A stretch of DNA of 64,000 nt, from positions 1,446,501 to 1,510,500 of the forward strand of contig NZ_CP133091.1 in the NCBI RefSeq assembly GCF_030908385.1. Reading direction: 5' to 3'. The notes under the pieces were generated by a model. The model saw nothing but the letters and a program-made list of their open reading frames with translations. It made no database searches and was not told the origin of the DNA. This document shows, one piece after another, positions 25,316 to 35,521 of the stretch (its first letter is position 1; each line of letters starts with the position of its first letter). This DNA comes from Mangrovimonas sp. YM274. Lineage in GTDB: Bacteria; Bacteroidota; Bacteroidia; Flavobacteriales; Flavobacteriaceae. A program made the translations under genes and the position numbers.

Positions 25316-26521
25316 ATGAAAAAAGTAGTATTAACTTTAAGTGCACTAACTGCAATTTGTTTAACCTCTTGTAGCAGTGACGATGATAGCTCCGTAAACA
25401 ATAATCAAGTAATAGCGCCTATTACCTATGAATTTGAAAGAGGAGGGAATTCAACCGTTAGTTTTTCTGGTCAGACTACACGAATTGCCATGGCGCAAGA
25501 GCTAAGAGGCGCTTTGTTAGACAACACGCTTTCGGCATCTCAGTTGATGGGAATGTTTGCCCACGAAGAAGGGAATGAAGATTTCTCAGATGCAACATTA
25601 AATGCCTCTAACAAGAACATACGAAGTAAAACAGCTGCATCTTCAGATTATTTTTCGGCAAATACGGTAGCTGCAGAGGCTATTAAATCTGATTTGGATG
25701 CATGGATTACAGAACAAGCCGATGTTGTTTTTGCAAATTGGGCGGTGACAGCCGAAGCTGGTGTTGCAGGGCAAATCCAAGAACCAGGAGGAGGAACAAC
25801 CCGTTACGTAAATGCTAAGGGATTGGAACTAAACCAAGCTGTAGCAAAATCTTTGATAGGTGGGTTGATGACCGATCAAATGTTGAACAACTATTTGAGT
25901 GTAAATGAACTTGATGCAGGGGATAACATGGAAAATAATACGGCAGAGGTTTTAGAAGATGGACAATTATATACTTCTATGGAACATAAATGGGATGAGG
26001 CTTATGGATACTTGTACGGTGCCGAAGTAGATCCATCTATGCCAGTTTTGAATGCGGATAGTTATCTGAATACATATTTAAGTCAAGTGGATAGCGATGC
26101 TGATTTTGCAGGAATTGCAGAAGCCGTTTACGAGGCATTTAAATTAGGACGTGCAGCCATTGTAGCCCACGACTATGATCTACGTGATGAGCAGGCTGAA
26201 ATTATCAGAGCTTCAATTTCTAAGGTTAGTGCCGTAAGAGCAGTACATTATTTTATTGGAGGTAAGGAAGCTATGGAAGCCAATAATATGGCTAAGGCAT
26301 TTCATGAACTTTCAGAAGGGTTTGGTTTTATGTACAGTCTTCAATTTACACGCAAACCGGGAACTAATGCCCCATATTTTTCTAAGTCAGAAATAGACGG
26401 ATATGTTAGTACATTAATGGCTGGAAATGGGTTTTGGGACGTTTCTGGAGAAACCTTGGAAACAATGGCGCAAGAAATTGCTAGCAGATTTGGGTTTACC
26501 GTTGAGGAAGCTGCAAATTAA
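25316..26521 (+). CDS. DUF4856 lipoprotein
   Basis: 401 residues. MKKVVLTLSALTAICLTSCSS is a lipoprotein signal with lipobox LTSC, followed by an Asp/Ser/Asn-rich tether. The mature part starts YEFERGGNSTVSFSGQTTRIAMAQEL, the signature start of DUF4856, and is helical, like imelysin, with DLRDEQAEIIRASISKVSAVRAVHYF near the C-terminal half. Function unknown. Immediate neighbours are imelysin, HTTM and a TonB receptor, which suggests a periplasm-facing role in uptake of a metal or cofactor. A strong promoter precedes and a terminator follows it. Confidence 0.88.
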   Translation: MKKVVLTLSALTAICLTSCSSDDDSSVNNNQVIAPITYEFERGGNSTVSFSGQTTRIAMAQELRGALLDNTLSASQLMGMFAHEEGNEDFSDATLNASNKNIRSKTAASSDYFSANTVAAEAIKSDLDAWITEQADVVFANWAVTAEAGVAGQIQEPGGGTTRYVNAKGLELNQAVAKSLIGGLMTDQMLNNYLSVNELDAGDNMENNTAEVLEDGQLYTSMEHKWDEAYGYLYGAEVDPSMPVLNADSYLNTYLSQVDSDADFAGIAEAVYEAFKLGRAAIVAHDYDLRDEQAEIIRASISKVSAVRAVHYFIGGKEAMEANNMAKAFHELSEGFGFMYSLQFTRKPGTNAPYFSKSEIDGYVSTLMAGNGFWDVSGETLETMAQEIASRFGFTVEEAAN

Positions 26522-26543
26522 AAAATATAAAATTTAAGTAATT

Positions 26544-26582
26544 AAGTGGTTGTTGCATTAGGTTTGCGGCAACCACTTTTTT
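26544..26582 (+). terminator. Terminator after the DUF4856 gene
   Basis: AAGTGGTTG (26544-26552) pairs with CAACCACTT (26570-26578), extended by G-U and G-C pairs, and is followed by TTTTTT. It separates the DUF4856 gene from imelysin, so the upstream gene can be made in excess. Confidence 0.85.
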
Positions 26583-26589
26583 ATATTTG
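26582..26589 (+). promoter_or_regulatory. -7 element before imelysin
   Basis: TATATTTG matches TAnnTTTG and begins on the last T of the preceding terminator. A TTG 15 bases upstream lies in the terminator stem, so promoter and terminator overlap. ATG of imelysin is 31 bases downstream. Confidence 0.5.
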
Positions 26590-26620
26590 CAAAGTTTATT
26601 TAGAGTAAATAAAAATAACC

Positions 26621-27730
26621 ATGAAATATCTTTTTAGTTTAGCTATAGTTGCATTGCTTTTCACCGGATGTGATTCTGATTCTGGATCCAGTAGTTCTAA
26701 TGGTGACGGATATGACAGAAGTCTTATACTTTCTAATTTAGCAGATAATATAATCATACCGGCTTATACAGAGTTCGGTAATGACATTTCTGCTCTTAAA
26801 ACTTCTGCTAGTACTTTTGTGGAAAATGCAAATCAAGCTAATTTAGAAGCTTTAAGATCCAATTTGTTTGAAGCCTATAAGACATGGCAATATGTAGGTA
26901 TGTATGATTTGGGGAAGGCCTACGAACTGCAATTGGGATATCAAATGAATGTATTTCCTACCTCTGTTGCTGAAATAGAAGCCAATATTATTGCTGGTAC
27001 TTATGATTTGGGACATAGTAATAACCATGATGCTGTTGGATTCCCTGCGTTGGATTATTTACTCTATGGGATTGGAGAGAATGATATGGATATTCTAGCC
27101 AAGTATACTACCGATCCTTTGGCTGAAAACTACCGAAACTACTTGATGGATTTGGTCAATAGAATGGATGCTTTAACACAGCCTGTAGTTGCAGATTGGC
27201 CAAATTTCCGAAGTGAGTTTGTTAGTAGCAGTGGCAATACGGTTAATAGTTCGTTGAACAAATTGATGAACGATTATATTGCTTTTTACGAAACTGCCTT
27301 AAGAAAAAATAAAATTGGATACCCTGCCGGTGTTTGGACAACAAGTACGTACCCAGAGAAGGTAGAAGCCTATTATAGTGGAGCGTATTCCAAAGAATTG
27401 TCTTTACATGCATTAAAAGCTGTAGAGGATGTTTTTAATGGCAAACATTACAATGGAAGTGCTGTTGGGGAGAGCTTCAAAACGTATTTAGACTATTTGA
27501 ACCAGATAAAGGACGGTACCGATTTAAGCGAACTTATCAATAATCAATTTGATTTATCTAGGGATAAAATCAATGTTTTGGATCCGAATTTTTATTCTCA
27601 GATAACCACAAATAATACGATGATGTTAGCAGCCTATGACGAACTTCAAAAGAATGTTATTTTGATGAAGGTTGATATGCTTCAAAGCTTTAATATATCG
27701 GTGGATTATGTAGATAGCGATGGGGATTAA
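26621..27730 (+). CDS. Imelysin family lipoprotein
   Basis: 369 residues. MKYLFSLAIVALLFTGCDSDS carries lipobox FTGC. The body is the two-four-helix-bundle imelysin/EfeO-like fold: ADNIIIPAYTEFGNDISAL, FEAYKTWQYVGMYDLGKAYE, and near the end KNVILMKVDMLQSFNISVDYVDSDGD. The family motif normally written GxHxxE appears here as GFPALDYLLYG, i.e. without its His and Glu. Imelysin-like proteins are iron-regulated periplasmic or surface proteins in Bacteroidota; peptidase activity is doubtful for most. A terminator-like hairpin follows. Confidence 0.9.
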   Translation: MKYLFSLAIVALLFTGCDSDSGSSSSNGDGYDRSLILSNLADNIIIPAYTEFGNDISALKTSASTFVENANQANLEALRSNLFEAYKTWQYVGMYDLGKAYELQLGYQMNVFPTSVAEIEANIIAGTYDLGHSNNHDAVGFPALDYLLYGIGENDMDILAKYTTDPLAENYRNYLMDLVNRMDALTQPVVADWPNFRSEFVSSSGNTVNSSLNKLMNDYIAFYETALRKNKIGYPAGVWTTSTYPEKVEAYYSGAYSKELSLHALKAVEDVFNGKHYNGSAVGESFKTYLDYLNQIKDGTDLSELINNQFDLSRDKINVLDPNFYSQITTNNTMMLAAYDELQKNVILMKVDMLQSFNISVDYVDSDGD

Positions 27731-27759
27731 TCCTTGATGCTGTAACAAACAAACGCTAG

Positions 27760-27791
27760 GATTCTTGCCATATCAGGTAAGAATCTTTTTT
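27760..27791 (+). terminator. Terminator/attenuator hairpin directly before the HTTM start
   Basis: GATTCTTGCC (27760-27769) pairs with GGTAAGAATC (27776-27785), 10 pairs including one G-U, followed by TTTTTT. The T-tract ends four bases before the HTTM ATG at 27796, so reading through this hairpin would set the amounts of HTTM and TonB receptor relative to imelysin. Confidence 0.85.
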
Positions 27792-27795
27792 ATAT

Positions 27796-29154
27796 ATGAC
27801 TTCTGCCTTAAAAAAATATTTGTCGTCCTATGCCAATGTAGCTCCTTTGGTGGTATTTCGTATTGGGTTTGGCCTTATGATGTTTGCAAGTATTATACGG
27901 TTTTGGAGTAAAGGGTGGATTGAAAAACTTTATATTGATCCTCAATATCATTTTTCGTATTACGGTTTTGAATGGGTGAAACCCTTAGGTGGTTTTACCT
28001 ATTTATTATTTGTAATATGTGCTATAGCGGCTTTTTGTATAGCAATAGGCTATAAGTATCGATGGATGGTAGCGGCTTTCTTTTTAAGCTTTACCTATAT
28101 TGAATTAATGGACAAAACTACCTATTTAAACCACTATTATTTTATTAGCGTGTTAAGTTTTATAATGATTTTTCTACCAGCTAATGCTGCGTTTTCTGTG
28201 GATAGTGTATTCAAAGGAAAATCATATAAGACCATTCCTAAATGGACTATTGACAGTATTAAGTTAATGCTGGGGGTGGTTTACTTTTATGCCGGTATAG
28301 CAAAGCTAAATTCTGATTGGTTATTAAGGGCCATGCCTTTAAAAATATGGCTGCCTTCAAAATATAGTTTACCTTTTATAGGAGAAAATTTAATGCAGCA
28401 GGAGTGGTTTCATTATGCCATGAGTTGGGGAGGTATGCTATATGATGTGAGTATTCCGTTTTTATTGCTTTACAGGAAAACAAGATGGTTTGCCTTTGCA
28501 ATGGTGGTGTTTTTTCATGTCTTTACAAGAGTTTTATTTCCTATAGGGATGTTTCCATATATCATGATTGTAAGCACCTTAATTTTCTTTGATGCTGGTT
28601 TTCATAATAGAATTATTGCAGGCCTAAAAAAAGTGCTCTCATTTCAGAAAAAGCCTAACATCCAAGAAAAATACCTCTATAAATTTCAAAAACCAGCTTT
28701 GCTAGTATTGAGTATCTTTTTCGTGGTACAATTGGTGTTTCCTTTTAGATACTTGCTTTATCCTGGTGAATTATTTTGGACAGAGGAAGGTTATAGACTG
28801 TCATGGCGGGTAATGTTAATGGAAAAACAAGGGCACACCACGTTTAAAATTGTTGATGGTAAAACAGGCCAATTTAAATATGTAGATAATTCTCAGTTTT
28901 TAACAACATTTCAAGAGAAACAAATGAGCTTTCAGCCAGATTTTATTCTGGAGTTTGCTCACTTTTTAGGGGATTACTACCGAGAAAATGAAAATTTCCA
29001 GGAAGTACAGGTGTATGCCGACAGTTATGTGGCTTTAAACGGGAGGTTGAGTCAACAATTTATAGACCCGACAATAGATTTATATAAGGAACGGGAATCG
29101 TTTAAACATAAACATTGGATTTTACCATTTAATGATGAAATTAAAGGACTTTAG
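27796..29154 (+). CDS. HTTM domain membrane protein
   Basis: 452 residues with about eight transmembrane helices in the first 330 and a soluble C-terminal part (WTEEGYRLSWRVMLMEKQG). APLVVFRIGFGLMMFASIIRFW, DKTTYLNHYYFISVLSFIMIF and YFYAGIAKLNSDWLLRAMPL are landmarks of the HTTM domain, distantly related to the membrane part of vitamin-K-dependent gamma-carboxylase. No biochemical role is proven for such bacterial proteins. The C-terminus overlaps or abuts the TonB receptor gene. Confidence 0.9.
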   Translation: MTSALKKYLSSYANVAPLVVFRIGFGLMMFASIIRFWSKGWIEKLYIDPQYHFSYYGFEWVKPLGGFTYLLFVICAIAAFCIAIGYKYRWMVAAFFLSFTYIELMDKTTYLNHYYFISVLSFIMIFLPANAAFSVDSVFKGKSYKTIPKWTIDSIKLMLGVVYFYAGIAKLNSDWLLRAMPLKIWLPSKYSLPFIGENLMQQEWFHYAMSWGGMLYDVSIPFLLLYRKTRWFAFAMVVFFHVFTRVLFPIGMFPYIMIVSTLIFFDAGFHNRIIAGLKKVLSFQKKPNIQEKYLYKFQKPALLVLSIFFVVQLVFPFRYLLYPGELFWTEEGYRLSWRVMLMEKQGHTTFKIVDGKTGQFKYVDNSQFLTTFQEKQMSFQPDFILEFAHFLGDYYRENENFQEVQVYADSYVALNGRLSQQFIDPTIDLYKERESFKHKHWILPFNDEIKGL

Positions 29155-29155
29155 C

Positions 29156-31612
29156 ATGTTATTCAATTGGATAGTTAAATTATTTACTAAAGAAGTTATC
29201 ACTATTTTTTGTGTTGTTTTATGTGTGTTGCAGTCAGTAGCACAGCATAAGGTGTCTGGCATGGTAACGGACAGTCTTACAAAAGCTCCTGTTGGTGAAG
29301 TTGAAATTTACGATAAGTTGAGAGGGCTTATAACAACAACGGATGCTAAGGGACATTTTGAATTTCAAACAAATAAAAGTAAGCTTACTTTGGTATTTTT
29401 TTCATTGTACCATGATGTTTTGGAAAAGGAACTTGCCATTACAAAAGATGTTGAGATGGCTATCGAATTATCCGTGACCGTAGAAGAATTGACGGCTGTG
29501 CAAATCAATTCTAGGCGTGCCAAAGCCTTTGCTTTAGAGCGTTTGGAAGACGTGGAGGGAACGGCAATTTATGCTGGGAAAAAGACGGAAGTAGTATTGG
29601 TTGACCAATCCATGGCAAATCTAGCAACCAATAATGCGCGACAAATCTATAGTGAAGTGGCGGGGTTGAATATTTATCAAAATGACGATGCTGGTTTGCA
29701 GTTAAATATTGGAGGGCGTGGTCTAGATCCTAATCGTACTTCTAATTTCAATACGCGTCAAAATGGTTATGATATCAGTGCCGATGTTTTGGGGTATCCC
29801 GAAAGTTATTATACCCCGGCAGCAGAAGGTTTAAAGGAAATACAGGTTGTAAGAGGAGCAGCATCCTTACAATACGGAACCCAATTTGGCGGATTGGTAA
29901 ATTTTGTAATGAAGGAACCTAATGCCAATAAACCTTTTGAATTGATAACCAGAAACACCTTGGGCAGCTTTGGGCTCTATACCAACTTTACAAGCATTGG
30001 GGGGACCAAAGATAAGCTTAGTTATTATGGATATTTTAATTATAAAAAAGGTGATGGGTTTAGGCCAAATTCGGAGTTTGAATCAAAGAATGCCTATATG
30101 CATTTAGGCTATCAGCTTACTGATAAAACAAAATTGACTGGAGAGCTTACCCATCTGCACTATTTGGCACAACAGGGAGGTGGGCTTTCAGATGGTATGT
30201 TTGCTGAGGATGCTTACCAAAGCAATCGTGAAAGAAATTGGTTTCAGGTTGATTGGTGGTTATACAACCTAACCTTGTCTCACCAATTTTCGGAAAACAC
30301 CAATTATACTTTTAGTGCTTTCGGGCTTAATGCCTCTCGTTATGCGCTTGGATTTAGGGAAAATAGAGTAAGCCAAGCCGATAATTTACAGGAACGAGAT
30401 CTTATTAAAAGTGAGTTTAACAATTTTGGATTTGAAACCAGATTGTTACATAAATATTTGTTGGGTGATACCAAGAGCACGTTTTTGATTGGGGGTAAAT
30501 TTTATAAGGCCAATAATTCTAGTGAGCAGGGGCCGGGATCGGATGGTTTTGGACCGGATTTTGACTTTTATTTGGATGATTATCCTACCTATCAAAATCA
30601 ATCAGCTTATACGTACCCTAACTTGAATGTGGCAGCATTTGGTGAGAATATTTTCTATTTCAACGAAAAATTTTCTATTACTCCGGGGTTCAGGTTTGAA
30701 TATATCAATACCGGAAGTGAAGGCTTTTATAAGGAATTTAGTGTGGATGGGGCCGGAAATATTGATGAAGAGATTACGCATTTTCAAGATGAAACCAGAG
30801 AGCGCTCGTTTGTGCTTTTAGGGTTAGGAGCTAGCTACAAACCTGTTAAAGGAGCGGAACTTTATGCTAATATTTCTCAAAACTACCGGTCTGTAACCTT
30901 TGCGGATATCAGTATTTTCAATCCTTCATTTAGTATTTCTCCAGATATTTCAGATGAGAAGGGATTTACAACAGATGTGGGCTTACGAGGACGCTTTAAG
31001 GATATTGTATCTTATGATGTTGGTGGATTTGCAATTTCTTATCGCGATAGGATTGGGATCGTTTTAAAAGAGCGGGAAGATGGTAAACTGGTAAGTGAAC
31101 GAGGTAATGTGGGGAATGCTCTTATTTTTGGGATGGAGTCCTTGATTGATGTCAATCTAAATAATTGGTTGATTGATAATAATGATTTGGTTTTAAGTTG
31201 CTTTTTCAATGGCGCTTTTATTAGTTCGGAATATACGTCTTCTGAAGAAACAGGTGTAGTGGGCAATGAAGTAGAGTTTATTCCCGCTGCAAATATCAAA
31301 ACTGGACTTAATTTTGGATATAAGAATTTCCTTTCTAGAATACAATATACATATCTGGGAGCTCAATTTACAGATGCTACCAATGCCGAAACTGACGAGC
31401 AAAATGAGAGTGGTGTATCGGGAATGATTCCTTCTTATGATATTTTGGATGTCTCTCTATCATATTCCTACAAAAGATTTAAGCTAGAAGCAGGTGTAAA
31501 TAATGTGCTTGATAATGTTTATTTCACTAGGCGTGCCACTGGGTATCCTGGTCCGGGTATTATTCCATCTGCGCCAAGAAATTGGTATACCTCATTGCAA
31601 ATACGGTTGTAG
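29156..31612 (+). CDS. TonB-dependent outer-membrane receptor, FecA-like
   Basis: 818 residues from the ATG at 29156, two bases after the HTTM stop; an upstream ATG at 29132 inside HTTM is also open. Signal FTKEVITIFCVVLCVLQSVAQ, then a carboxypeptidase-like regulatory domain (HKVSGMVTDSLTKAPVGEVEI), a plug (ATNNARQIYSEVAGLNIYQND, IQVVRGAASLQYGTQFGGLVNF) and a barrel ending in RNWYTSLQIRL. The plug with NIGGRGLDPNRTSNFNTRQNG is like ferric dicitrate receptors. No SusD partner, so a siderophore, haem or metal complex is likelier than a glycan. Confidence 0.92.
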   Translation: MLFNWIVKLFTKEVITIFCVVLCVLQSVAQHKVSGMVTDSLTKAPVGEVEIYDKLRGLITTTDAKGHFEFQTNKSKLTLVFFSLYHDVLEKELAITKDVEMAIELSVTVEELTAVQINSRRAKAFALERLEDVEGTAIYAGKKTEVVLVDQSMANLATNNARQIYSEVAGLNIYQNDDAGLQLNIGGRGLDPNRTSNFNTRQNGYDISADVLGYPESYYTPAAEGLKEIQVVRGAASLQYGTQFGGLVNFVMKEPNANKPFELITRNTLGSFGLYTNFTSIGGTKDKLSYYGYFNYKKGDGFRPNSEFESKNAYMHLGYQLTDKTKLTGELTHLHYLAQQGGGLSDGMFAEDAYQSNRERNWFQVDWWLYNLTLSHQFSENTNYTFSAFGLNASRYALGFRENRVSQADNLQERDLIKSEFNNFGFETRLLHKYLLGDTKSTFLIGGKFYKANNSSEQGPGSDGFGPDFDFYLDDYPTYQNQSAYTYPNLNVAAFGENIFYFNEKFSITPGFRFEYINTGSEGFYKEFSVDGAGNIDEEITHFQDETRERSFVLLGLGASYKPVKGAELYANISQNYRSVTFADISIFNPSFSISPDISDEKGFTTDVGLRGRFKDIVSYDVGGFAISYRDRIGIVLKEREDGKLVSERGNVGNALIFGMESLIDVNLNNWLIDNNDLVLSCFFNGAFISSEYTSSEETGVVGNEVEFIPAANIKTGLNFGYKNFLSRIQYTYLGAQFTDATNAETDEQNESGVSGMIPSYDILDVSLSYSYKRFKLEAGVNNVLDNVYFTRRATGYPGPGIIPSAPRNWYTSLQIRL

Positions 31613-31822
31613 TCAATTATATAATTTCATTTAGGCTTTTTCAAATACGTGTTTGTTGGTTCCCAAACCAGAGTTAAATGCTGTTTTTGGAGGGGGAGCA
31701 ATAAGCCCCTTTCTTAAAGTTTGCTTAAGATATTGATTTTGTAACAATTGTTACTTGTTAATTGAAATAAAGCACATTACTTTACGTTGTTAATGTGATT
31801 AAACATACACAATTAAGTTATT

Positions 31823-32260
31823 ATGCGTAAGTTATTAGTGCTTCTACTATTTATTTTGGGAGTAAATAGTGTGTTTTCGCAAGAATGGCAAACCAACTTC
31901 GAGGAAGCCAAATCCCAAGCAGCTAAAGAGCATAAATCCATTGTATTGATTTTCTCAGGTTCCGATTGGTGTGCACCGTGTATCAAATTGGAGAAGCAGA
32001 TTTTGGAAACAGAACAGTTCAAATCGTTCGCCAATGAAAGGGCTGTGCTTGTTAGGGCTGATTTTCCACGGAAAAAGCAAAATCAATTGGATGAAAACCT
32101 TCAAAATCAAAATAAGCACTTAGCAGAAATGTACAACCAACAGGGATATTTTCCACTTGTGGTTGTAATGTCTCCCGAAGGGAAAGTTTTGGGTCAGGCA
32201 GGGTATGAAAAAACCAGTCCAGAGGCTTATGTAGCAAAGCTAAAGGGCTTTATGAAATGA
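31823..32260 (+). CDS. Periplasmic thioredoxin-fold protein
   Basis: 145 residues. MRKLLVLLLFILGVNSVFSQ is a signal peptide. Active site SGSDWCAPCIKLEKQIL (CxxC) and a cis-Pro loop GYFPLVVVMSPEGKVLG make this a thioredoxin of the DUF255/thioredoxin_7 kind acting in the periplasm. It is the first gene of a tight four-gene operon (ApbE starts 10 bases later), so it may reduce cysteines in the Cys-rich DUF4266 product; that link is inference. Confidence 0.88.
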   Translation: MRKLLVLLLFILGVNSVFSQEWQTNFEEAKSQAAKEHKSIVLIFSGSDWCAPCIKLEKQILETEQFKSFANERAVLVRADFPRKKQNQLDENLQNQNKHLAEMYNQQGYFPLVVVMSPEGKVLGQAGYEKTSPEAYVAKLKGFMK

Positions 32261-32269
32261 TAGGCTGAA

Positions 32270-33247
32270 ATGAAACGTCTCTTCTTGATCCTATTTTTTT
32301 TATGGGGAATCTCAGCTTCCGCACAGTCCGTTTTTAAGCGGACCCTAAAACTAATGGGAAGTCGTTTTGATATCTCTGTTGTAGCAGAAAATCAACAACA
32401 GGCCGATGGTTATATTGATATTGCGGTTGAAGAAATTACCAGAATTGAAAAGTTGATATCATCGTGGGATGCCAATTCCCAAACCTCAATGATCAATGCC
32501 AATGCGGGCATACAGCCTGTTATAGTTGATAGAGAGTTATTCAATTTAATTAAACGAGCTGTGGGATTGTCCAAACTCACCCAGGGAGCTTTTGATATTT
32601 CATATGCGTCCATGGACAAAATTTGGAAGTTTGATGGCAGTATGGAAATGATGCCAACAGAGGAGGAAATTAAGCAGTCTGTGTCTAAAGTTGGCTATCA
32701 GCATATCGATTTGAATGAAAATGCTGGTTCGGTTTTTTTGGATACTAAAGGAATGAAAATTGGCTTTGGGGCCATTGGCAAGGGGTATGCCGCAGATCAA
32801 GCAAAAGAGCGTTTGAAGGCTTTAGGGGTGCAAGCAGGTATCATTAATGCTTCTGGCGACATGAATACATGGGGACGGCAACCCAATGGCGAACTTTGGA
32901 ATATTGCCATTACAAACCCTCTTAACAAAGATAATGTGTTTGCCATGCTGCCAGTAGACAACCAGGCCATTGTAACTTCCGGTAATTATGAAAAGTTTGT
33001 AAAGTTTAACGGGGTACGTTATGCTCATATTATCGACCCTAGAACCGGTTACCCTAGTACGGGAATTATCAGCGTAAGTGTTATGGCAGCAAAAGCTGAA
33101 CTCGCCGATGCTCTTGCTACCTCGGTATTTGTCATGGGCAAGGAGGTAGGTTTGGATTTTATCAACCAATTAAATGGTGTAGAATGCATCATTATAGATG
33201 AACAAGGAAATATAAATTACTCCAATTTAATAAAACCAAAACAATGA
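32270..33247 (+). CDS. apbE: FAD:protein FMN transferase
   Basis: 325 residues. Signal peptide MKRLFLILFFLWGISASAQS places it in the periplasm. Family motifs: LMGSRFDISV, GAIGKGYAADQAKERL, NASGDMNTWG, and TSGNYEKFVKFNGVRYAHIIDPRTGYPS. ApbE moves FMN from FAD onto a Thr/Ser of a client protein using magnesium. No typical FMN-acceptor domain is encoded in the neighbourhood. The stop overlaps the DUF4266 start (ATGA), so the two are translationally coupled. Confidence 0.95.
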   Translation: MKRLFLILFFLWGISASAQSVFKRTLKLMGSRFDISVVAENQQQADGYIDIAVEEITRIEKLISSWDANSQTSMINANAGIQPVIVDRELFNLIKRAVGLSKLTQGAFDISYASMDKIWKFDGSMEMMPTEEEIKQSVSKVGYQHIDLNENAGSVFLDTKGMKIGFGAIGKGYAADQAKERLKALGVQAGIINASGDMNTWGRQPNGELWNIAITNPLNKDNVFAMLPVDNQAIVTSGNYEKFVKFNGVRYAHIIDPRTGYPSTGIISVSVMAAKAELADALATSVFVMGKEVGLDFINQLNGVECIIIDEQGNINYSNLIKPKQ

Positions 33248-33456
33248 TTAAGTACGTGTCATTAATGGGATTTTTAATAATCTCATTAAGTTCTTGCACG
33301 GCGGTAAAAGAATATGAAAAGGTCAATATTAATGACCCGGAAATGGTCTTGTCCGCTCGAAAAGCAGAACGCTTCGAAACCAATTTTCAATTGTATAGAG
33401 AAGGTTCCTCCGGTGCCAATGGAGGTAAAACGGGAGGAGGCTGCGGATGCAATTAG
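33244..33456 (+). CDS. DUF4266 small lipoprotein with Gly/Cys tail
   Basis: 70 residues. Signal SLMGFLIISLSSCTAV gives lipobox SSC. The mature peptide of about 50 residues has the DUF4266 block NINDPEMVLSARKAERFETN and ends in a glycine- and cysteine-rich tail, GKTGGGCGCN. From memory this last tail is strongly conserved in the family. No function is known to me. It overlaps apbE by four bases and the DUF3570 gene starts three bases after its stop. A segment SSGAN resembles the FMN-acceptor motif SGAT but lacks the acceptor Thr. Confidence 0.88.
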   Translation: MIKYVSLMGFLIISLSSCTAVKEYEKVNINDPEMVLSARKAERFETNFQLYREGSSGANGGKTGGGCGCN

Positions 33457-33458
33457 GT

Positions 33459-34763
33459 ATGAAAAAGATAAGTTTACTGCTGTTACTGTTGGCAGTAGCT
33501 GTTGGCTATTCGCAAAACAAACCTGCAGATTCCTTACAAAATTCTACAGTAACAGCCTATAAAAAGCGCGTATTGGAAACTACGGAAGTAGATTTTTTAA
33601 TGAGTTATTATGCACAGGATGGTAAGCATGCTGCGGTTTCTGGTGGGATTGGTGATGAAAACTTAACCGATATCACACCAACCATTGTGGTAGCCATTCC
33701 TTTGAACAGCGACGATGTTTTGACCGTGGACGCTGGGATTTCTGCATACACTTCGGCATCTTCCAGTAACATTAATCCGTTCGATTCTAACAAACCGGCG
33801 AGCCCGTTTTCTGATTCTTCGGGGGCATCTAGGTCTGATACTTGGGTGAATGGAAATTTTAGTTATGCCCATTCTTCGGACGACAGAAATCAAATAATAG
33901 GAGCGACTCTGAGTGTGGCTTCAGAATACGATTATTTCTCCATAGGTTTTGGTGGAAATTATACGCGTTTGTTTAACGAAAAAAATACAGAACTTGGAGT
34001 AAAGGCCAATGTGTTTTTGGATACTTGGAACCCTCAATACCCTATTGAGTTAAGAAATGGTTTTTCGCACTCGGGTATTGAAGGACCAGGAACTTATGAT
34101 CCATTTAAATATGAAAAATTTAATGACTTGGGCCGAAACTCCTATAGTTTGTCATTGAGCTTTTCGCAAATCCTGACAGAAAATTTACAGGCCTCCATTT
34201 TTATGGATCTTGTGTTGCAGCAAGGATTGCTTTCTACACCGCATCAAAGGGTATATTTTATGGATCAACCAGATTTCTTTATAGCAGATTTTCAGTTGGC
34301 TGATGATGTAGAGCGTTTACCAGATAGTCGATTTAAAATTCCGATTGGGGGTAGGTTAAATTATTTTATAAATGAAAGATTGACACTTAGAACTTATTAT
34401 CGGTTTTATTCAGACGACTGGGGGATTACGTCACATACAGCTAGTATAGAAGTGCCTTACAAGATCAGTGATAAATTTACGATATACCCAATTTATAGAT
34501 ATTATACCCAAACGGCAGCCGATTACTTCGCTCCTTATGAAGCGCATTTGTCAAATGAAGACTATTACACTTCAGATTATGATCTCTCAAAATTTGATAG
34601 TAATCAATTTGGTGCAGGTTTTAATTACACTGATATTTTTACAAGCTTCCATATTTGGAAAGCTGGCTTGAAAAGTATCGATTTCAGGTATGCTCATTAC
34701 AAGCGTAGCGACGGGCTGTCAGCCAATATATTCTCCACTGCATTTAAGTTTTTGATTGATTAG
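33459..34763 (+). CDS. DUF3570 outer-membrane beta-barrel protein
   Basis: 434 residues from the ATG at 33459. Signal MKKISLLLLLLAVAVGYSQ. The rest alternates aromatic and polar residues as in outer-membrane barrels, with RLNYFINERLTLRTYYRFYSDD and DKFTIYPIYRYYTQTAADYF, and the C-terminus SANIFSTAFKFLID. These match DUF3570. Consistently found beside DUF4266 and ApbE in Bacteroidota. Probably a pore or scaffold for the DUF4266 lipoprotein; function not established. Confidence 0.88.
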   Translation: MKKISLLLLLLAVAVGYSQNKPADSLQNSTVTAYKKRVLETTEVDFLMSYYAQDGKHAAVSGGIGDENLTDITPTIVVAIPLNSDDVLTVDAGISAYTSASSSNINPFDSNKPASPFSDSSGASRSDTWVNGNFSYAHSSDDRNQIIGATLSVASEYDYFSIGFGGNYTRLFNEKNTELGVKANVFLDTWNPQYPIELRNGFSHSGIEGPGTYDPFKYEKFNDLGRNSYSLSLSFSQILTENLQASIFMDLVLQQGLLSTPHQRVYFMDQPDFFIADFQLADDVERLPDSRFKIPIGGRLNYFINERLTLRTYYRFYSDDWGITSHTASIEVPYKISDKFTIYPIYRYYTQTAADYFAPYEAHLSNEDYYTSDYDLSKFDSNQFGAGFNYTDIFTSFHIWKAGLKSIDFRYAHYKRSDGLSANIFSTAFKFLID

Positions 34764-34798
34764 AATTTAAGTATCTTTATGTTTTATCAAAGCTCAAG

Positions 34799-35521
34799 TT
34801 GATTCAACAAAAGACCTTAAAGAACGGCCTTATATTTTTGTTTTTAACCCTTGGCCAATTTGCCTTGGCCAAGGAATGGATATGTTTTAAAGACTTTCAA
34901 AAGACAACAGGAAACCTTGAGTTGCCAACTTCTGATTGGTTGAAATCTGATAGGAAACACAATACCCTTAAATGGGAACAAGCAAACGCATACAATTTAG
35001 AGCATGGTCTCTTTGGGGAATACACCAGTATTCAACAAAGAACAGATTTTTATCAATGGCTTTACGAAGCGTTGGACAAAAAGGGACATGAAGTTGTATG
35101 GCCAAAAATGGCCCATTTCATATCTAATAAATTAAGGCTTGTTAAAGGATTTCCGTATTGCATATTCATGAAAGGCAGCATCAAGAAATATGCTTATTTA
35201 GGAAGTGAGGCTGCTTTTAATGGAGCCCTCGAAACTTTGGGAGCACTTTACTATTCCAAAGTCATATTTAAAGGAGAAAATGCCTTGGATTGGGATAAGC
35301 AACTTCTATACAAGGAACAACATATATGGCTAGAAAATATCTATAAAAAAGTAGATGCTTCAACCTTGAAAACCATTGAACGTATGGCTAAGGGAAAAGG
35401 ATTTTATGCTTTGATTGTACCCAGGGAAATTCGTTTTCAAGGCGATATTTCATTGGAAGAAAAGCGCTACGAATATGCCTTGCATACTTTGAGGGATTAT
35501 TGCAAGGAGCATTATCCATAA
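34799..35521 (+). CDS. Conserved secreted protein of unknown function
   Basis: 240 residues starting at TTG. The segment KNGLIFLFLTLGQFALAKEW is a probable signal peptide. The mature part is basic and aromatic-rich (GHEVVWPKMAHFISNKLRL, HIWLENIYKKVDASTLKTIERM) with no motif I recognise. It lies 36 bases after the DUF3570 gene on the same strand and could belong to that operon, though similar genes may exist without that neighbour. No function assigned. Confidence 0.72.
   Translation: MIQQKTLKNGLIFLFLTLGQFALAKEWICFKDFQKTTGNLELPTSDWLKSDRKHNTLKWEQANAYNLEHGLFGEYTSIQQRTDFYQWLYEALDKKGHEVVWPKMAHFISNKLRLVKGFPYCIFMKGSIKKYAYLGSEAAFNGALETLGALYYSKVIFKGENALDWDKQLLYKEQHIWLENIYKKVDASTLKTIERMAKGKGFYALIVPREIRFQGDISLEEKRYEYALHTLRDYCKEHYP

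Follow-up and report, generated by a model that had tools for sequence, protein, structure and literature searches.

The 64,000-nucleotide stretch of DNA analysed here, called the window (Mangrovimonas sp. YM274, contig NZ_CP133091.1, positions 1,446,501 to 1,510,500), contains four open reading frames (ORFs) on the forward strand at 31823-34763. They encode a thioredoxin-like protein, the flavin adenine dinucleotide (FAD):protein flavin mononucleotide (FMN) transferase ApbE, a DUF4266 lipoprotein and a DUF3570 protein predicted to form an outer membrane (OM) β-barrel. A first-pass annotation of the same DNA had described these four families with 9, -4 and 2 bases between the genes. The ORFs are present as claimed, and each family assignment was matched by Pfam. 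The last gap depends on the DUF3570 start codon. The ATG at 33459 gives a typical signal peptide, as judged by eye, and a gap of +2, while the first in-frame ATG, at 33447, overlaps DUF4266 (-10). The thioredoxin resembles DsbH, yet scores below the cut-off of the DsbH model; we propose that it is a periplasmic electron carrier. A promoter and terminator scan of 31500-35000 produced no more sites than shuffled sequence.

Table 1. Features of the four-gene operon, in positions of the window.
Feature	Position	Strand	Basis
Thioredoxin-like protein, secreted	31823..32260	+	Thioredoxin_7 (PF13899), 1.9e-15; active site SGSDWCAPC
ApbE, FAD:protein FMN transferase	32270..33247	+	PF02424, 2.2e-84, full-length (1-266/266); signal peptide judged by eye
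DUF4266 lipoprotein	33244..33456	+	Pfam, 2.1e-20, 1-50/50; lipobox Cys18; Gly-rich tail ending GGGCGCN
DUF4266 C-terminal Cys-Gly-Cys-Asn, proposed dithiol relay	33442..33453	+	CGC conservation
DUF3570, predicted 16-stranded OM β-barrel, putative ApbE client	33459..34763	+	Pfam, 2.1e-37; predicted structure; published substrate class
Putative FMN site 1, TSAS (mature S82)	33750..33761	+	end of strand 3; relaxed motif
Putative FMN site 2, SGAS (mature S105)	33819..33830	+	before strand 4; canonical motif
Loop 2 (mature 79-108), both putative FMN sites	33750..33839	+	extracellular by predicted topology

The operon had been annotated as an envelope redox module with no known client. The envelope redox part was judged right. 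The second part was superseded in 2021, when DUF3570 was shown to be a substrate of ApbE in Chlorobium luteolum, with that organism's own ApbE (Meheust et al. 2021, PMC8238504). Flavinylation of the C. luteolum protein was abolished only by Ser-to-Ala substitution at both of its [S/T]GA[S/T] sites (PMC8238504). The text of the same paper describes clusters of ApbE, DUF3570, a PF13899 thioredoxin and DUF4266, with or without DsbD. It counts 316 clusters without DsbD nearby; of its 285 DsbD clusters, 227 include DUF3570. The Mangrovimonas operon is a member of the kind without nearby DsbD of this DUF3570-type ("DsbD-class") flavinylation system. This kind of system was already known, and it is well supported that the missing client is the barrel encoded in the same operon. 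DUF3570 of Mangrovimonas itself probably carries FMN.

Mangrovimonas DUF3570 contains both sites, TSAS, which fits only a relaxed form of the motif, and SGAS. It was aligned with 72 of 83 listed relatives (n = 73), and A81 and S82 were invariant. In a joint alignment, site 1 of the Chlorobi-type and Bacteroidota proteins coincided in the same loop. "Chlorobi-type" (family f17 and the like) is a label inferred from motif type and DsbD context. The motifs were then tallied after exclusion of duplicates and of DUF3570s shorter than 360 amino acids (aa). In the region searched, canonical [ST]GA[ST] was found in 60/137 distinct DUF3570s, with Ser or Ala often taking the place of the motif Gly in Bacteroidota. 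At least one copy of the relaxed form [STA][GSA]A[ST] was present in 137/137. Because a Ser-rich stretch can readily match the relaxed form by chance, we placed weight on the aligned invariant residues.

The gene order thioredoxin-ApbE-DUF4266-DUF3570 recurs exactly for 95/140 DUF3570 genes in 132 loci (window included), which is beyond chance. The gap between DUF4266 and DUF3570 has a median of 21 bases (n = 135 pairs). Eighty of the loci, here called the named loci, are the best 80 of at least 544 confirmed relatives, with Chryseobacterium and Mucilaginibacter frequent among them; DUF3570 is present in every one, with ApbE in view in 75 and thioredoxin in 73. ApbE was out of view in 5/52 loci (window included). 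Contigs end close by in three of these (L109, L114 and L117), and in the genomes of the other two (L103 and L104) the single ApbE lies elsewhere. One locus contains a natural thioredoxin-ApbE fusion, a 476-aa ORF (L099, 6500-7930). In Chlorobi-type loci a ResA/TlpA-like thioredoxin gene comes first (a cluster of 10 loci), and a gene of the DsbD cluster is next downstream in 7.

A phylogenetic profile, proposed in the first-pass annotation, showed that DUF4266 and DUF3570 rarely occur without ApbE. Among 296 sampled genomes of the phylum, DUF4266 was found in 83 and DUF3570 in 86, and all 83 are within the 86. ApbE was present in 192/296 genomes and in 83/86 of those with DUF3570 (Fisher p ~1e-15, kinship ignored). 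The three DUF3570 genomes without ApbE (G181, G213 and G276) are all multi-contig drafts. Neither the 296 genomes nor the 132 loci are independent samples, as 46 of the 83 genomes with DUF4266 belong to family f17.

Some loci showed unusual arrangements. L113 (7914-16458) has four DUF3570 and two DUF4266 genes interspersed with Big_5 (Ig-like) and OpcA-like genes; its last two DUF3570s form one 832-aa frame in the genome profile search that was split by ORF calling. The DUF4266 gene of L123 was found in the search for relatives and missed by ORF calling. The modules of L187 (titled candidate division KSB1) and L188 (Chlorobiota) are as near to the Mangrovimonas module as those of Lutibacter, and these two are possibly mis-binned Flavobacteriaceae contigs.

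The statement that no classical FMN-binding client is encoded within 10 kb is literally true. A family scan found no FMN_bind domain in the operon. The sole FMN_bind (PF04205) match in the genome is in the nqr operon (C1:3353187), where NqrC carries AGAT, and the sole DUF2271 match, with TGAT, is at C1:3762089, both far off. The statement is a poor guide to the client all the same, since the ApbE clients already in print include the DUF3570 class. Conventional clients elsewhere, which the annotation had set against its own reading, do exist in NqrC and the DUF2271 protein, yet the second of the two ApbE genes of the genome, a lipoprotein by eye, is close to the nqr genes. We infer a division of labour in which the operon ApbE serves DUF3570. 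Around the DUF2271 gene (L201 2862-10103, C1:3757000-3768000) are also a PepSY/flavodoxin/reductase-like fusion, recognized by eye, an ankyrin-like protein and a TonB receptor.

The annotation had offered either the peptide or the barrel as the client. The barrel holds, as a member of the published class; the peptide very probably does not. DUF4266 is tightly linked to ApbE, as a client would be, and 127 different DUF4266 sequences were compared. With positions numbered from the C terminus, none holds a conserved Ser or Thr that could accept FMN; position -15, for instance, is S in 95, A in 23, G in 4, V in 3 and I in 2. DUF4266 was rejected as an FMN client on this ground, and we regard that alternative as highly improbable. 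What is conserved is a CGC motif within the last six residues, in 127/127 sequences, and the last 50 residues contain exactly two Cys in 124/127. Surface lipoproteins of Bacteroidetes have an acidic export signal after the lipobox Cys (PMC5080379). In 124/127 DUF4266 sequences there is no acidic residue at +2 to +5, hence the sequence predicts an OM-tethered DUF4266 that faces the periplasm and bears a long Gly-rich tail.

That DUF3570 is a 16-stranded OM β-barrel is well supported by structure prediction. An AlphaFold2 model of the Mangrovimonas protein, built with the 73 sequences, covers 415 residues with a predicted local distance difference test score (pLDDT) of 87.7 and has 16 strands as read from the DSSP string. 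A Pedobacter homologue whose loop is short was also modelled with AlphaFold2 and again showed 16 strands (pLDDT 89.7). The best VIA-align match of the Mangrovimonas model was the PgaA barrel 4y25 (Z 21.4, root-mean-square deviation 3.2, 253 aligned), followed by other OM barrels, namely a BamA model, PelB, BcsC and OmpG. By sequence, no solved structure was found at E up to 1 for DUF3570 or for a Cyc2-like ORF of locus L112 described below.

With an even number of strands and both ends in the periplasm, connections 1-2, 3-4 and so on lie outside. The outer connections of the model have 9, 30, 2, 34, 33, 4, 27 and 4 residues (mean 18), and the inner turns have 4, 5, 4, 2, 4, 5 and 10 (mean 5). 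Both putative FMN sites are in connection 3-4, thus they are predicted by the model to share one loop on the outer side of the membrane. Neither the barrel fold nor the side of the DUF3570 FMN sites was found in print in the text of open-licence PMC papers. The words "barrel" and "porin" do not occur in the text of PMC8238504, figures aside. DUF3570 is not treated as a barrel in the text of PMC11334425, of its preprint PMC10979944 or of PMC12052999 as far as these were available, while PMC11334425 mentions in passing that flavinylation contexts include the OM. Within the literature searched, the predicted outer-loop placement appears to be new, as does the conservation gradient computed on the model.

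This gradient was obtained with strands taken from the model and the lumen face chosen by hydrophobicity. From the inner to the outer third of the barrel, conservation of lumen-facing strand residues rises from 2.68 to 3.01 to 3.78 bits, and that of lipid-facing residues does not rise (2.44, 2.30 and 2.16 bits). In 20,000 permutations with randomly flipped strands, a difference as large as the one observed never arose. Tyr predominates among the highest-scoring residues, which also include one Trp, several Gln and charged residues. These data bear on a device that faces the periplasm, in which the FMN loop would fold into the lumen and exchange electrons or disulfides with periplasmic partners only, none passing outward; a ferric chelate reduced on its way through the pore would be one instance. 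The thioredoxin and DUF4266 are predicted to be periplasmic and the conserved strand residues line the lumen, both as such a device would have it, but the lumen conservation and both FMN sites lie toward the outer rather than the inner end. We consider this arrangement unlikely.

The reading that we favour, and think rather probable as a whole, is that of a flavinylated OM barrel that passes thiol-derived electrons to an acceptor at the surface. Secreted ApbE would attach FMN to two Ser residues of DUF3570 during its transit of the periplasm, and the 16-stranded DUF3570 barrel would afterwards be inserted so that loop 2, which carries both FMNs, lies at the outer rim. DsbD, encoded elsewhere in the genome, would reduce the periplasmic thioredoxin, which in turn would reduce the C-terminal CGC dithiol of OM-anchored DUF4266. 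The flexible DUF4266 tail could hand electrons on, by way of the barrel, to the FMN pair. The acceptor that the FMN pair would reduce, either on the cell surface or beyond it, is most likely a metal such as ferric iron. The electron path, the direction of flow and the substrate are our suggestions from gene content and the model. More doubtful, and put forward tentatively, is the proposal that the system is a complete conduit across the OM without cytochromes, in which the DUF4266 CGC charges the FMN pair on the outer loop and the barrel acts as a surface reductase or oxidase.

Several points weigh against the surface-barrel reading. Some concern the FMN sites. Site 2 is missing or shifted in several aligned DUF3570s. 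Those of L087, L088 and L092 lack [ST][GS]A[ST] and contain only the widest form, with Ala first. In the Mangrovimonas clade, site 1 is without the leading Asp and has Ser in place of the motif Gly. The canonical motif is given as D-x-x-[S/T]-G-A-[S/T] in PMC12052999, where, in another protein, loss of the Asp had a minor effect, a Gly-to-Ala change cut flavinylation by half and Thr was favoured over Ser. Site 1, in which Asp and Gly are absent and the acceptor is Ser, not Thr, is therefore not assured of full flavinylation.

Others concern the barrel. Foldseek returned the same OM-barrel class, but with TM-scores to single structures of 0.33-0.47, which are low and point to a common barrel fold without a close relative. 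The outer side was assigned to the FMN loop from the order of the strands and the lengths of their connections, rather than from coordinates. Loop residues 81-110 have block pLDDT values of 51-60, therefore the pose of loop 2 is not fixed by the model. Loop 2 averages 1.91 bits, compared with 1.76-2.74 for the inner turns, and only its motifs are well conserved. The limits of strands 12 and 13 were hand-smoothed from the DSSP string, and the conservation gradient was computed on DUF3570 alone. We know of no precedent for an OM loop that carries FMN through barrel assembly.

The remaining points concern the electron path. The predicted location of the DUF4266 tail would suit a relay into the barrel from below, but the relay itself is a proposal. 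The only DsbD_TM (PF02683) match in the genome is at C1:3009756, outside the locus. The iron-type genes upstream of the operon have a single relative, a TonB receptor in L188, in the 80 named loci.

These upstream genes (25316-31612) encode a DUF4856 lipoprotein, an imelysin (M75), an HTTM/VKGC-like protein and a siderophore-type TonB receptor, and together resemble an iron-uptake operon. They were considered as a general part of the module and rejected, because searches of the loci of 51 relatives recovered none of these four genes. The upstream genes were searched for with single-sequence phmmer at strict cut-offs, so distant homologues may be missed, and the loci searched came from genera other than Mangrovimonas. 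On the other side, a 240-aa ORF (34799-35521) directly after DUF3570 has no Pfam or NCBIfam match and no relative in the neighbour sets examined.

Neighbouring genes were counted within four genes on either side in the 132 loci, and each family was named from one representative per BLAST cluster. The largest clusters were a histidine kinase (31 loci), VIT1 (23) and an unnamed 129-aa protein (23), followed by CzcA (20), CusB/HlyD (20), cytochrome b561 (13), haem-binding (11), Rieske (10) and Chlorobi-type DsbD (7). The CzcA cluster is one that we take to be CzcA from its sequence and not from a family match. VIT1 is on the strand of the module in 23/23 cases, compared with 60% of all neighbours; the 23 loci fall into only 7 sequence clusters and are not independent cases. 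The text of PMC8238504 lists VIT1 in 25 DUF3570 clusters. Taken together, the neighbours point to metal redox at the envelope rather than to one proven substrate. A Rieske lipoprotein gene lies directly upstream on the same strand in L071, L072, L077, L087, L089, L091, L094, L100, L197 and L198, and several of these proteins look surface-exported from their lipobox sequences (CSNSDD, CSSDD and CSKDD). A paper on iron genes of Flavobacterium psychrophilum (PMC9331221) mentions electron-transfer genes nearby that respond to iron, with a citation of the flavinylation paper; these genes are not identifiable from the text available. In the accessible text of a Caulobacter preprint (PMC11870441), PepSY/DUF2271 and not DUF3570 is tied to iron.

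L102, L108, L112 and L113 each have an ORF with 8 heme motifs on the strand of the module, at a distance of 2.2-4.5 kb. In L112 (1038-9350), a Chlorobi-type locus, the 8-heme-motif ORF, a mono-heme cytochrome, a cupredoxin-like gene and a heme-porin ORF, which we presume from its motif to be Cyc2-like, precede thioredoxin-DUF4266-DUF3570. These ORFs are what might be expected if the barrel instead worked inward, taking its electrons from Fe(II), a reduced sulfur compound or some other donor outside the cell, as the Chlorobi-type clusters may hint. For the Chlorobi-type copies, sulfur activation of the kind found in green sulfur bacteria was also considered as a possible role. DsbD and thioredoxin as a rule export reducing power, and no ORF with at least 4 heme motifs was found in the 80 named loci, nearly all of which are Bacteroidota by title. 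Electron uptake seems to us quite improbable. At 20-45 kb of the window no multiheme ORF was found (at least two CxxCH; single motifs were outside the count).

The module could also be read as one for metal handling, with the DUF4266 CGC binding copper, iron or zinc, the barrel moving or sensing the metal, and FMN tuning its redox state. The invariance of CGC and the VIT1, CzcA/CusB and haem-binding genes near some loci would fit. These neighbours are patchy and lineage-dependent, however, and nearly all DUF4266 tails (124/127) have only two Cys. We give metal handling slightly less credence still than electron uptake. Returning to the surface-barrel reading, once both FMN sites are placed on one predicted outer loop, what was a vague redox module outside the cytosol becomes a specific claim that can be tested, with the exact residues named.

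The closest known system is the DsbD-class system, as described in the text of PMC8238504. It shares the same four families, the DUF3570 flavinylation motifs, the CXC of DUF4266 and the PF13899 thioredoxin. In the Mangrovimonas operon, site 1 is TSAS rather than [S/T]GA[S/T], and DsbD is encoded elsewhere in the genome. In Nqr and other FMN_bind systems, too, ApbE modifies a protein outside the cytosol with FMN at a Ser or Thr, but the client is an inner-membrane or periplasmic domain. The PepSY-DUF2271 system, proposed to reduce iron, is present in the same genome; its client likewise has an ApbE motif, and a TonB receptor is encoded beside it. It differs in having an inner-membrane PepSY protein with flavodoxin/reductase-like parts (by eye) and a soluble client, with no barrel client. 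Porin-cytochrome conduits (Mtr and Cyc2) consist of an OM barrel holding a redox cofactor, with heme cytochromes, and so share with DUF3570 an OM barrel whose cofactor could move electrons across the OM. Their cofactor is heme, whereas the Mangrovimonas cluster has no multiheme cytochrome. If the surface-barrel reading is true, electrons would cross the OM on flavin and thiol, heme-free, in many Bacteroidota and Chlorobi, and the answer would apply widely given the occurrence of DUF4266 in 83/296 genomes.

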